From the NCBI GenBank assembly GCA_019412865.1, contig DXOJ01000010.1, positions 1 to 5,785 of the forward strand: a stretch of DNA of 5,785 bases. The letters are read 5' to 3'. This document shows, piece after piece, positions 2,474-5,785 of this stretch. A model generated the notes under the pieces. That model saw only the letters and a program-made list of their open reading frames with translations, searched no databases and was not told where the DNA came from. The stretch's first letter is position 1. The number at the start of each line of letters is the position of its first letter. The translations under genes and the position numbers were made by a program. The DNA comes from Bacteroides sp. Lineage in GTDB: Bacteria; Bacteroidota; Bacteroidia; Bacteroidales; Bacteroidaceae.

Positions 2474-2499
2474 ATTATTTTCTCTTTAAAAATTTCAAA

Positions 2500-3957
2500 C
2501 TATTCTCCAAGCACTACCCAATACCCATATCGTTTGCTTCCTACGCGTTTTAATAAGCCCAACTCCTGTAAACGTGCCAAGTTATATTTTATACCATCGA
2601 CTGTTATACCTTCAATATGACTATTTAAATCCGCCCGTGTGGCCTCCGGATGTTCTCTTAGATAACTTAAAATCATATTTTGGGCTTCTGTTAATTTCTG
2701 GGTAGTGTATTGGGTAGTAGATTGGGTAGTATGTTGGGTAGTATATTGAGCCGGTCTTCGTTCATTATCGGCACTATCTTCCATATTTGTATTCTCCTGA
2801 TAGTTCTTTTTAATAAACTGTACTTGAAAAGACAAACCAACCTCCTTCCAACATAAATCAATTTCAGGATAAGATTTCATTTCTTCAGCCACCATTTTCA
2901 ATCCATTACCCCATTGGTCAATGATGCCAAGTCTTTTAAACACAGGAGCTATTACTTTATTTCTTGCATTTGATTGGCGGCTCTCCATTGCCGAATAATC
3001 AATAGAGGGTGGTAAAAGACCAGGACTTGTGATCTCAACCATATCATCATATATGGCAACTTTGACATCTTTTCCTGTCAGAGAATAATCTCTATGTACA
3101 ATCGCATTACGGATAATCTCCCTTATTGCCTTCACTGGATACTCCCAACGTGAAACCGTATATACTCCCTCTATATTTGCTGCTTTATTAATATGCCGAA
3201 GTACAAAGTTATAAGTTTCTTCCGCCTGTAACCCAATGTGGACAATAATACTTTTTTGATCTAAAAACTCTTCCGTTCCTGTCCCTTTGAAACGGGCACA
3301 TTCAACTTTGGCATTCGGAAACATAGAATTACGCAAATTATCATCCGAAAATAGAAGTAAAGCTTTTGTAGGATATTCTTTATCCTGTTCAGTCTTAACC
3401 AATTCCAGTTTACGAAGTACTTGAATATTTAAATCTTCACCTGTTTTCTCTTTGTAGAGTAATTTAAACCCACTTATATCCAATTCATCTGCGGACTTAT
3501 CCATGACAACCTCACTATCAAAAGAAATATTTCTCCGTCTCCGCTCTAACTCTGCAATAATTGTTTCATCAGCTAGTTTATTGGTTGAACCAACCCTAAT
3601 ATAAGTTCCTTTCAGCTTCCCTTTATCTTTAAGATAGTAAGGGGGCATACTTCCACGATAAATACACACTTTAATAAGGTGTTTGTCCTCTATAGTTAAA
3701 AAAGAGACTTCAGGTAATATAATCGGATAACATCTATCATATATTAAATTACTAATTTGCTCTTCAATACGAGGTAATTCTTCTTCTGACAACCCTATTA
3801 TCTGTCGCGGGTTATCATTGATACCTATATAAATTTCACCTCCCGCATCATTGGCAAAAGCCACTACAGTTTTTGCTAAATCAGAATTTGTAGGAAGCTC
3901 ACCTTTAAATTCTAAACGCCGACCTTCAGACTGGTTTATAAGTTCATTAATAGACAT
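2500..3957 (-). CDS. AlbA_2 (Schlafen-type) / RecG-like ATP-binding protein with C-terminal winged helix
   Basis: This 485-residue protein has three recognisable parts. Residues ~8-130 form an AlbA_2 domain (PF04326): GRRLEFKGELP at 12-22 and VVAFANDAGGEIYIGI at 31-46, ending with YIRVGSTN at 119-126. Residues ~270-375 resemble the GHKL-type ATPase domain of RecG-like proteins (HATPase_c_4): an N-box-like REIIRNAIVHRDYS at 279-292 with E280 and N284, EITSPG at 308-313, and a glycine box QWGNG at 348-352. Residues ~421-485 form a winged helix (MILSYLREHPEATRADL), likely DNA-binding. A TTQ repeat linker lies between the last two (405-420). Databases often call such proteins ATP-dependent DNA helicase RecG, but no helicase motifs are present, so that name would mislead. 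A regulator or stress/defence role is plausible but unproven. It lies 26 bp upstream of the GSCFA gene on the same strand and is divergent from the 4106 gene, whose promoter it might control (inference). Confidence 0.92.
   Translation of the reverse strand: MSINELINQSEGRRLEFKGELPTNSDLAKTVVAFANDAGGEIYIGINDNPRQIIGLSEEELPRIEEQISNLIYDRCYPIILPEVSFLTIEDKHLIKVCIYRGSMPPYYLKDKGKLKGTYIRVGSTNKLADETIIAELERRRRNISFDSEVVMDKSADELDISGFKLLYKEKTGEDLNIQVLRKLELVKTEQDKEYPTKALLLFSDDNLRNSMFPNAKVECARFKGTGTEEFLDQKSIIVHIGLQAEETYNFVLRHINKAANIEGVYTVSRWEYPVKAIREIIRNAIVHRDYSLTGKDVKVAIYDDMVEITSPGLLPPSIDYSAMESRQSNARNKVIAPVFKRLGIIDQWGNGLKMVAEEMKSYPEIDLCWKEVGLSFQVQFIKKNYQENTNMEDSADNERRPAQYTTQHTTQSTTQYTTQKLTEAQNMILSYLREHPEATRADLNSHIEGITVDGIKYNLARLQELGLLKRVGSKRYGYWVVLGE
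2699..2746. repeat. Four-copy 12-bp tandem repeat encoding a TTQ linker
   Basis: Four consecutive 12-bp units beginning tgggtagt lie at 2699, 2711, 2723 and 2735 and differ only in the last four bases. On the minus strand they encode [Y/H/S]TTQ four times (residues 405-420 of the AlbA_2 protein). Because the unit is a multiple of three, copy-number change would lengthen or shorten the linker without a frameshift. TTQ-type linkers are, from memory, common in Bacteroidetes proteins of this kind. Confidence 0.92.
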
Positions 3958-3994
3958 CTATTGAATATATTGTTTTTTAAACTTTTTCTCGAAG

Positions 3995-4002
3995 CAAAAG
4001 TA
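3995..4002 (-). promoter_or_regulatory. Candidate Bacteroides -7 box for the AlbA_2 gene
   Basis: The minus strand reads TACTTTTG, a full match to the Bacteroides -7 consensus TAnnTTTG, 38 bp or so upstream of the ATG at 3957. No good TTTG -33 box lies at the usual 19-21 bp spacing; the nearest TTTG (4020-4017) is only 14 bp away. The box is therefore supported by its match and position but not by a complete promoter. Confidence 0.5.
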
Positions 4003-4022
4003 CAATAAAGATATGACAAATA

Positions 4023-4054
4023 ATTGGAGAAGCAAAAGAACTTTCTTATCTTTG
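4023..4054 (+). promoter_or_regulatory. Candidate Bacteroides promoter for the 4106-5753 gene pair
   Basis: TATCTTTG at 4047-4054 matches the -7 consensus TAnnTTTG fully, and ATTG at 4023-4026 matches the -33 TTTG at three of four bases with a 20-bp spacer, inside the accepted range. Transcription would start near 4060, leaving a leader of roughly 45 nt before the ATG at 4106. It lies inside the longer reading frame that begins at 4013 and so argues against that earlier start. Confidence 0.6.
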
Positions 4055-4105
4055 TCTTTATCTGATAATCAAACCAACAAACTGCAAAATATAATTATCC
4101 ATAAT

Positions 4106-4867
4106 ATGAATAACATACAAGTTAGCCTAAAAGCAGATAACCAAAACGGAATACTATCCATACAAGGAGTTGATTTATTTAGTATCATAGATACCGACTG
4201 GAACTGGAACAATATTTCATTCATACAGGATTCTTGTGTAAGAGCTTTTTTTATACGTGCCAAAAAACTTCTGAACAATAATATTGCAGAAGAAGAAGAT
4301 AATCAAGTCTTCAATGATGCATCTAAAAATTCAGAAGAAATAAATTCATATTATGAAAAAGAATTCGGCTATTCTGAATGGACACTACCTGAAATAGAAG
4401 ATTATGATCCTAGTGATGAAACAGAAATAAACTACGATGTCGACGATTTAGATCGAACTGAAATAAATTTATCAATTCCATATTACAAAATTATTTGGCA
4501 TGAAAGTATCTATCAGTATATTTACGATAATCTGAATTTATGGGCTTGCAAAATAGAAGAAGACATTAAAGTATATAAAGAACTTTGCAATATTATAGAT
4601 AACATCCCTACAATTATATCCACTATTAGACATGAGAATAGTACTCCAAAAGCCATCCTAAGTCTGATGCAAAAGTTCAACATTAGTAAGCAGACTGCTG
4701 AAACGATTGTCAATATGAAGTTATATATATTGTCAACTTTAACGGTTGGTGATTGTGAAAACACTCTTCAATATAAAAAGGAATTGAGAGGAACTGTAAC
4801 TAAATTAATCATCTTAAAAAAGAAAATCACCGAAACGTACAGAGCAAATGAAAAAATCAAAAAATGA
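4106..4867 (+). CDS. Hypothetical protein with a GyrA/ParC-like coiled-coil (C-gate) segment at its C-terminus
   Basis: I do not recognise the protein as a whole. With the start at 4106 it has 253 residues. The same frame also has an ATG at 4013 (284 residues), but a good promoter lies between the two and the extra 31 residues are low-complexity, so I prefer 4106. Three parts can be seen. An N-terminal part (residues ~1-60) has no motif I know. A very acidic stretch (nt 4286-4471, 62 residues) has 22 D/E against 3 K/R. The C-terminal part (nt ~4571-4864) reads like the gyrase A / topoisomerase IV A coiled-coil segment: NIIDNIPTIISTIR, then LMQKFNISKQTAETIVNMKL, then a helix ending in KLIILKKKI. 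In gyrase A the matching pieces are ALDxxDxVIxxIR and FxLxExQAxAILDMRL. The catalytic-tyrosine and ATPase domains are absent. It may bind topoisomerase subunits or simply use the fold to dimerise (inference). It is A+T-rich and lies 55 bp before its likely operon partner. Confidence 0.8.
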   Translation: MNNIQVSLKADNQNGILSIQGVDLFSIIDTDWNWNNISFIQDSCVRAFFIRAKKLLNNNIAEEEDNQVFNDASKNSEEINSYYEKEFGYSEWTLPEIEDYDPSDETEINYDVDDLDRTEINLSIPYYKIIWHESIYQYIYDNLNLWACKIEEDIKVYKELCNIIDNIPTIISTIRHENSTPKAILSLMQKFNISKQTAETIVNMKLYILSTLTVGDCENTLQYKKELRGTVTKLIILKKKITETYRANEKIKK

Positions 4868-4922
4868 CATAACTAATAATGGCTAGTTTATTAACATTTT
4901 CCAATATTTAAATAACCAGAAT

Positions 4923-5753
4923 ATGAAAAACTATTATTTTAAAGAACTCATAAGAGATAAAAAACTCACAAAAGATAATGACAAAGCGGAATTCATTGGC
5001 TATGGAAATCCTGATGCTGATATTTTAATTATCGGCAAAGAATGTGCTATTGATCCAAAACATGACCCAGATAACATTTATGAGTTGAGTATAACAAAAA
5101 ACGGAGAACAGTGGTTAAGTATCATAAATGATACAAACAAACAAAATCCTGATAATATACCTTCTTGGTTTTCTGAATGCCCTAGAGAAGAAAAATTCAG
5201 TCCATTATTCCCTTTTAAAGGACAACTATTCACTCAAAAGAAAAGAAATGAAAATCACGGGACCAATACTACATGGTATAACTATCAAAAACTTATAGAT
5301 AAAATAAGGGCTATCGATAGTAATCATCCAGATAGAACAAAAAATGATGAAATAGACTTTCTAAAATATTGCTTTATTACAGAATTCAGTGGCATATGTA
5401 GTCTTTATAGCAAGGAAAGCCCCGAAGTTACAGAATCTATCAAAAATAGGACTACAAATTTATTGAATCACCCTTTTTTTAAGTCTTTTCCTATCATCAT
5501 AATAGCTTGCGGTCATTATGTCCGCCAATATAAAGATATTATTGATTTACAGAAGTTATTTGAGGTTAAATGGGATGAACGCACAATCGAAGTTGAGAAT
5601 AATTGGTATAATTTACATAAAGGAAACAACAAAATCCTCATTCATACAAATCAGTTATCAATGAATATTTCTAATCAATTATTGGATAAAATAGCCAATG
5701 AATTCCAACCATTATTTAAAGGAATAAAACAAGAAGACATACATGTAAAATGA
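4923..5753 (+). CDS. Hypothetical protein, possibly of the uracil-DNA-glycosylase superfamily fold
   Basis: This is a 276-residue protein, and its function is uncertain. The pattern suggests an alpha/beta fold of the uracil-DNA-glycosylase type. GNPDADILIIGKE (residues 28-40) recalls the first strand and loop of family 4/5 glycosylases. TWYNYQKLID (117-126) and FITEFSG (151-157) would be mid-domain elements, the strand IIIACGHYVR (191-200) follows, and KILIHTNQLS (237-246) sits where those enzymes carry a conserved histidine. I see no cysteine cluster for an iron-sulphur centre, and base-excision activity cannot be claimed. From memory, similar Bacteroidetes proteins are annotated as hypothetical. 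There is no signal peptide or membrane segment, so it is probably cytoplasmic. It follows the gyrase-A-like gene by 55 bp with no promoter box or terminator seen between, so co-transcription is likely. It is A+T-rich like that partner and unlike murF, consistent with acquisition by transfer. Confidence 0.72.
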   Translation: MKNYYFKELIRDKKLTKDNDKAEFIGYGNPDADILIIGKECAIDPKHDPDNIYELSITKNGEQWLSIINDTNKQNPDNIPSWFSECPREEKFSPLFPFKGQLFTQKKRNENHGTNTTWYNYQKLIDKIRAIDSNHPDRTKNDEIDFLKYCFITEFSGICSLYSKESPEVTESIKNRTTNLLNHPFFKSFPIIIIACGHYVRQYKDIIDLQKLFEVKWDERTIEVENNWYNLHKGNNKILIHTNQLSMNISNQLLDKIANEFQPLFKGIKQEDIHVK

Positions 5754-5785
5754 TTAGTTCATTGATAAAAAGTAACCATTTAGAT

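Follow-up and report, generated by a model that had tools for sequence, protein, structure and literature searches.

What does a piece of DNA gyrase do in a small protein that holds none of the rest of the enzyme? The question is raised by a gene in a stretch of 5,785 nucleotides of Bacteroides sp. DNA (contig DXOJ01000010.1), referred to here as a whole as the window. Its product of 253 amino acids has a C-terminal half which our analysis confirmed to be a homologue of the coiled-coil/C-gate segment of the gyrase subunit GyrA, without the rest of gyrase. Judging from the genes found next to it, we tentatively favour, with doubt only slightly outweighing belief, the view that the protein is a self-pairing adaptor for the adjacent predicted DNA glycosylase of the uracil-DNA glycosylase (UDG) fold in a predicted anti-phage cassette.

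A GyrA C-gate segment in an otherwise unrelated protein

The gene and its parts are as follows.

4106..4867, + strand: gene of the stand-alone C-gate protein, 253 amino acids, stop codon included, with a start common to relatives P0003, P0004 and P0126
4106..4279, + strand: N-terminal region, residues 1-58, matching no family; conserved within the protein's own family, with WNW at residues 32-34 among the conserved positions
4280..4501, + strand: acidic linker, residues 59-132, with 22 Asp and Glu versus 4 Lys and Arg
4490..4864, + strand: GyrA-like coiled-coil/C-gate module, residues 129-253, identified by profile, PDB-sequence and structure matches

P0003, P0004 and P0126 begin as the 253-residue form and P0001 and P0002 are recorded as a longer form of 284 or 285 residues; the former (4106-4864), chosen in a preliminary description of the sequence, is used throughout. 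That description had proposed that the C-terminal segment follows the pattern of the GyrA/ParC C-gate, and profile searches, PDB matches and the far lower scores of shuffled sequences bear this out. The Pfam family PF00521 matched residues 136-244 with positions 320-426 of its 432 (E = 2.1e-6; 27.3 bits, under the gathering score of 31), and NCBIfam models for a topoisomerase subfamily (5.1e-8), gyrA (9.8e-8) and parC (3.9e-6 and 1.6e-5) matched within residues 148-242, all with scores far under the whole-protein cut-offs, as would be expected of a fragment. In a phmmer search of PDB sequences, S. aureus GyrA (8.4e-4) aligned without gaps to residues 156-215, so that the gapless spacing to GyrA, first noted over approximately 42 residues, in fact extends over 60. 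A profile built on five relatives retrieved 16 PDB sequences at E<=0.01, every one of them GyrA (best 7.4e-7). Furthermore, a profile of Bacteroidales GyrA gave 25.7 bits for the window protein, -3.2 for its reversed sequence and 8.4 for the best of 2000 shuffles. Identity to Bacteroidales GyrA is 33% over 57 aligned columns, and the alignable length of C-gate segments against GyrA/ParC is about 60 residues.

The earlier suggestion to compare a predicted structure with gyrase A structures was followed with a model built from the protein's own family only, which adopts the fold of the GyrA coiled coil and C-gate (105 residues of one chain superpose at 2.6 Å). The segment, originally placed at 4571..4864, is present there, but by structure alignment the homology starts earlier, at residue 129 (approximately 4490). 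Confidence of the model, expressed as the predicted local distance difference test (pLDDT), was low in the linker (27-35 by blocks) and reached 33-57 by blocks of ten in the N-terminal region. Nothing outside the C-terminal part resembles the DNA-breakage domain, as had been claimed: its winged helix, catalytic tyrosine and tower were not found, the PF00521 match covering only profile positions 320-426 and those of the gyrA models starting only from about position 363, and for residues 1-135 four libraries gave no family match at E<=10. The C-terminal DNA-wrapping domain is likewise absent, since the protein ends at residue 253 with the returning coiled-coil helix. Profile and fold evidence thus uphold the description of a small protein that is unrelated to gyrase except for its stand-alone, GyrA-type coiled-coil/C-gate segment. 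At the tip, the window protein reads MKLYILSTL where GyrA has the conserved motif MRLRQLTGL, the arginines being lost, and the sequence of this tip varies between subgroups of the family. Residues 133-253 hold 19 Lys and Arg versus 14 Asp and Glu. The N-terminal region of the window protein is conserved in four relatives, of which the most distant stands at 45%.

The adjacent gene encodes a protein with a predicted UDG fold

The C-gate gene is followed at a short distance by a second gene on the same strand.

4923..5753, + strand: UDG-fold protein, 276 amino acids, predicted DNA glycosylase, 55 nucleotides downstream of the C-gate gene (model pLDDT 90.6, predicted template modelling score 0.90)

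Foldseek and VIA searches with this model yielded matches to uracil-DNA glycosylases, the best PDB match being 4zby, a family-4 UDG of S. tokodaii. The protein therefore has the UDG fold according to its model and is a predicted DNA glycosylase. By profile, a UDG family was not recognised: PF03167 matched 2 of the 38 members of the UDG-like family (best E 0.07), and the UDG-like profile had no match in PDB at E<=10. Homology to Ung or Mug by profile was rejected, as hhalign comparisons with Ung and Mug-like sets were not significant, and the likeness was kept only as one of fold. The catalytic motifs of Ung are GQDPYH and HPSPLS. In the UDG-like family E40 within GKE is present in 38/38 members, and the motif HTxQLS has H241 in 29/38 and Q244 in 36/38, a tentative equivalence to the Ung motifs being judged by eye. 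The model had no viral-structure match at E<=0.001 (best 3.9e-3), and the protein had no matches in the plasmid, phage and viral_contigs collections.

A family of stand-alone C-gate proteins

A first protein search with the window protein gave five close relatives. Its UDG-like neighbour has homologues at E<=1e-20 in 5 of 399 genomes of the family, and two of the clusters around them hold small genes encoding 147 and 185 amino acids with gyrA matches of 3e-4 and 6e-7. When these two proteins were added, the search reached 274 proteins at E<=1. The composition of the family was counted on the best 120 of these 274 matches, among which the 115 new proteins comprise 91 of 170-192 amino acids, 13 of 146-147 and 11 of other lengths. 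Stand-alone C-gate proteins were found in metagenomes and in Bacteroidales genomes; one 185-residue member (P0151) is named as Xylanibacter brevis. PF00521 matched 28 of 28 sampled members of the 185-residue group at E<=0.01, and all five window-type members have a gyrA match at E<=1e-3. By hhalign, the window family aligns with the 185-residue group over 108 columns (1.7e-7, probability 93.8), from a SIxxYxY...W motif ahead of the GyrA-like coil, and with the 147-residue group at 3.9e-5 and a probability of only 70.5. Distant relatives thus have in common the C-gate segment and a short stretch before it, with N-terminal parts differing in length and sequence. Among 91 sequences of the 185-residue group, positions 81-100 are better conserved, with a mean majority of 0.90-0.95 versus 0.62-0.68 for the C-gate stretches 111-130 and 161-170.

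Ratios of nonsynonymous to synonymous substitution rates (dN/dS) in four pairs of C-gate genes were 0.20, 0.31, 0.32 and 0.48, the values of the 147-residue group resting on few changes, and show purifying selection on these related genes. Charge differs between members: residues 31-147 of the 147-residue member are acidic (16 Asp and Glu versus 10 Lys and Arg), and residues 95-185 of the 185-residue member are near neutral (12 versus 13). The 185-residue family is, by eye, a mosaic of similar middles and different tips (RLSILTGIRPEQ versus RLSQLTGMRPDN, alignment A8, columns 101-188), as if recombined or under diversifying pressure. In metagenomes, truncated versions of the window protein (P0005, P0142, P0145) hold the N-terminal or C-terminal part alone, perhaps through repeated gene loss or as assembly ends.

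Direct relatives of the window gene were found neither in genome_contigs (with two peptide patterns) nor in the viral_contigs, phage and plasmid collections. Among 158 genomes of the genus, a profile of four relatives matched one frame each in 142, at model positions 155-250 only, and none in 16; the matched frames of 465-906 amino acids were taken for GyrA, and no relatives of the window gene were found beyond such GyrA-length frames. The 399 genomes of the family gave none at E<=1e-9, in a search without a positive control, so that this empty result shows little. The 185-residue protein had no matches in plasmids, phages and viral_contigs, and the 147-residue protein none in plasmids and viral_contigs.

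Gene clusters around stand-alone C-gate genes

In searches with the C-gate proteins, 2 of 299 and 3 of 44 genomes, five in total, proved to have a stand-alone copy of full length; the seed genomes G476 and G222 are among them. The C-gate query was matched at E<=1e-6 in 184 of the 299, the others among the matches listed being partial (query 71-181), in frames mostly of GyrA length and some broken off at contig ends. Six clear stand-alone loci with DNA were available, namely the window, L119, L120, L170, L174 and L175, of which L119 and L120 were found via the UDG-like gene.

Four of these six loci, the window included, have a UDG-like gene in the cluster; it is directly adjacent to the C-gate gene in the window, L120 (2 nucleotides apart) and L170 (4-nucleotide overlap), and one gene away in L119. 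Where the flanks are known, in five loci of five, the immediate neighbour of the C-gate gene is a gene for a protein of unknown family and approximately 270-300 amino acids, with gaps of 2-3 or 42-43 nucleotides. This partner had no match in PDB better than 0.056 by profile and no matches in phages. A relative of it is located on an IMG/VR viral contig (L198:1-945), near a frame read as lysozyme, and may also travel on phages or prophages. In L175 no UDG-like gene is present, and a GmrSD pair lies one gene from the C-gate gene (PF03235 at 1.5e-30 and 3.7e-23, PF07510 at 4.2e-8 in one of the two). L174, in the same chromosomal neighbourhood as L119, has a C-gate gene with neither UDG-like gene nor GmrSD nor any recognised effector.

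L120 and L170 have a common order: KilA-N, WYL, a gene of 172/189 amino acids, UDG-like, C-gate and the partner of about 300 amino acids. Between the two loci identity is 94% for KilA-N (in L170 PDC-S22 of PADLOC, E 1.5e-131), 95% for WYL, 89% for the 172/189-residue protein, 92% for the partner and 79% for the C-gate protein, versus 22% for the UDG-like protein. The UDG-like gene, at 22% against 79-95% for the other five, was thus exchanged inside the cluster: the putative effector was swapped while the C-gate protein and its partner stayed. Defence-related genes in the surroundings of the UDG-like family or of the C-gate clusters comprised PDC-S22 of PADLOC, WYL, GmrSD, AbiL and a type III restriction-modification system.

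Three further observations concern these surroundings. The 172/189-residue protein (L120:10295-10813, - strand; L170:2163-2732, + strand) weakly matches the UDG-like profile (3e-9) and is perhaps a second, reduced UDG-like protein. In L116 and L117 (858-1448, - strand in both) a gene read as a Mug-like glycosylase lies directly downstream of the UDG-like gene, with the partner gene present and the C-gate gene absent. A frame of 110 amino acids (L215:7119-7451, - strand) resembles a fourth C-gate protein that has diverged strongly (E 0.029 with the 147-residue and 0.84 with the 185-residue profile); it lies upstream of a partner gene, with UDG-like and WYL genes in the vicinity, and was excluded from all counts.

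Possible functions of the C-gate protein

The contents of the clusters (UDG-like genes, a GmrSD pair, regulators of the WYL and KilA-N kinds and the partner of about 270-300 amino acids) point to a mobile defence cassette, in which a self-dimerising adaptor, the last option of the preliminary description, seems a better fit than pairing with host gyrase or topoisomerase IV. The C-gate module is probably a dimerisation module. GyrA dimers can be held by their C-gates in open forms, in which C-gate and adjacent coil contact DNA (PMC6286129); in the same manner the tip of the stand-alone module may pair two copies into a forked dimer. The conserved stretch before the C-gate and the cluster partners suggest that the two arms would serve to carry or place both the glycosylase (or GmrSD) and the partner protein. 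Like Brig1 and Brig3, the glycosylase would excise modified bases of phage DNA, and the WYL and KilA-N proteins would control expression of the cassette. Enzymes directed against modified phage DNA are known both with the UDG fold (Brig1, PMC11078745; Brig3, PMC13160076) and among GmrSD (PMC4619093), which fits a system against base-modified phages. It is possible, though somewhat more doubtful than the adaptor itself, that we are dealing with a new modular anti-phage system of Bacteroidales, in which C-gate protein and partner form a fixed platform for exchangeable UDG-fold or GmrSD enzymes and a topoisomerase gate would have been put to new use as an immune scaffold.

Several counts weigh against this interpretation. 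Most UDG-like loci are devoid of a C-gate gene (2 of 13 examined carry one), the partner gene was found in 22 places (20 of 291 genomes) with a C-gate gene in only 3 of them and one weak case, and a UDG-like gene is present in one of the three non-seed C-gate genomes. Known from few loci, the C-gate protein thus occurs occasionally near two genes that are themselves more common.

Among other explanations, the one that survives best, although we consider it unlikely, is a factor directed at gyrase or topoisomerase IV: the free C-gate would swap into a GyrA or ParC dimer of host or phage and block, protect or recruit the enzyme, for example bringing the glycosylase to replicating DNA. Indeed, gyrA models give the module higher scores than parC models do, exchange of GyrA subunits and of their interfaces is known (PMC11164529), and a gate fragment without the breakage domain would by its very make-up act as a dominant negative. 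However, the tip has lost the arginines of GyrA and differs among subgroups, identity to Bacteroidales GyrA is the mentioned 33% over 57 columns, and the recognised neighbours are enzymes acting on DNA bases or modified DNA, not gyrase modulators. Were it true, the protein would be a naturally occurring gyrase fragment with a dominant-negative effect, which would be just as interesting for the biology of drug targets.

Less probable still is a DNA clamp, in which the arms of the dimer would grip the duplex, much like the passed segment in the lower cavity of gyrase, and the glycosylase would gain processivity. The contacts that C-gate and neighbouring coil make with DNA in open GyrA dimers (PMC6286129) and the basic excess of residues 133-253 would agree with it, but the 147-residue member is acidic, the 185-residue member near neutral, and with no breakage domain the top of the cavity is not closed. 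We give even less credence to a toxin-antitoxin or immunity pair, in which the C-gate protein with its acidic linker (22 Asp and Glu in 74 residues) would restrain the neighbouring enzyme until infection; a small gene beside a likely DNA-damaging enzyme and the tight spacing in L120 and L170 speak for it, whereas UDG-like genes mostly occur without a C-gate gene, L174 has a C-gate gene without recognised effector, and the 147- and 185-residue members counted for charge have no such acidic linker. Finally, a decayed or captured gyrA fragment without function, of which the truncated P0005, P0142 and P0145 might be reminiscent, is highly improbable and as a plain fragment largely ruled out by the protein's own conserved N-terminus (four relatives, the furthest at 45%), by dN/dS of 0.20-0.48 in related C-gate genes, and by the existence of several divergent subgroups.

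If the preferred reading of an adaptor for the UDG-fold enzyme is correct, it would link a GyrA C-gate module to base-excising phage defence. A literature search of open-licence papers found no stand-alone C-gate protein, and as far as it shows this would be the first GyrA C-gate outside a topoisomerase. The parts are known; their combination is new. The C-gate gene may also serve as an accessory gene by which glycosylase systems could be sought in Bacteroidota, which the figure legend on Brig1 does not list among its phyla (PMC11078745).

Genomic setting of the window

The window is chromosomal DNA of Bacteroides type. From base 1 to base 2482, where the match ends, it agrees with B. xylanisolvens XB1A at 91.8%; at the XB1A site, 198 bp separate the GSCFA gene from the next gene, presumably dxs.

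2483..5785, no strand: stretch absent from the XB1A site; the insert may extend beyond the window end
2500..3957, - strand: divergent gene with SLFN/AlbA_2, RecG-C-like HATPase and a weak winged-helix match, within the same inserted stretch as the C-gate gene
4023..4054, + strand: weak Bacteroides-type promoter-like match upstream of 4106

The gene order after 2482 is SLFN/AlbA_2-HATPase (2500-3957, - strand), the 253-residue gene (4106-4867, + strand) and the 276-residue gene (4923-5753, + strand). Their G+C contents of 0.36, 0.30 and 0.30 are lower than the 0.41-0.45 of the flank genes, as expected for an acquired stretch. The divergent gene encodes 485 amino acids with SLFN/AlbA_2 and HATPase_c_4, matches the phage helicase family phrog_12156 (3.7e-58) and has a common upstream region with the C-gate gene. 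A scan with the Bacteroides-type promoter consensus gave two matches in the window versus 0.39 expected, a number also reached by 11 of 200 shuffles; the one at 4023-4054 would fit the start of the 253-residue gene, albeit weakly. Scans of the window for sigma-70-type promoters (11 promoter-like sites versus 12.2 expected) and for terminators (none versus 0.4 expected) were uninformative. At 1191-1283 an inverted repeat with 33-nucleotide arms (91% complementary, 27 nucleotides between), built of gttgagagtt-type repeats, sits in the Mur-ligase frame, where it is translated (ELRVESSM...PTLNSQLSTLNF) and looks like a small in-frame insert.

Comparison with known systems

Proteinaceous gyrase inhibitors and pentapeptide-repeat protectors (ParE, CcdB, Qnr) are small proteins, and like them the C-gate protein could act on gyrase; to our knowledge none of them is built from a piece of GyrA itself. 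The type IV restriction enzyme GmrSD is represented by the L175 pair, with GmrSD_N in both proteins and GmrSD_C in one, which takes the effector place beside the C-gate and 300-residue genes; the window holds no GmrSD gene, and the link is one of neighbourhood in one locus only. The anti-phage DNA glycosylases Brig1 and Brig3 have likenesses to the neighbouring gene: an S. tokodaii UDG is the best structure match of its product, as reported for Brig1 (PMC11078745), its family sits in defence-like surroundings, and brig3 also has an accessory gene, bapA (PMC13160076). In contrast, the Brig1 legend names Firmicutes, Proteobacteria, Actinobacteria, Cyanobacteria and Planctomycetota, not Bacteroidota (PMC11078745), and in the main text on Brig3 the words gyrase and topoisomerase are absent (PMC13160076). 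With GyrA/ParC the window protein has in common the coiled-coil arms and C-gate tip, their fold and helix order and a gapless alignment through the tip. It differs from them in having no winged helix, tower, catalytic tyrosine or C-terminal domain and in its changed tip arginines, and it possesses an N-terminal region and acidic linker of its own and adjoins a UDG-fold gene.
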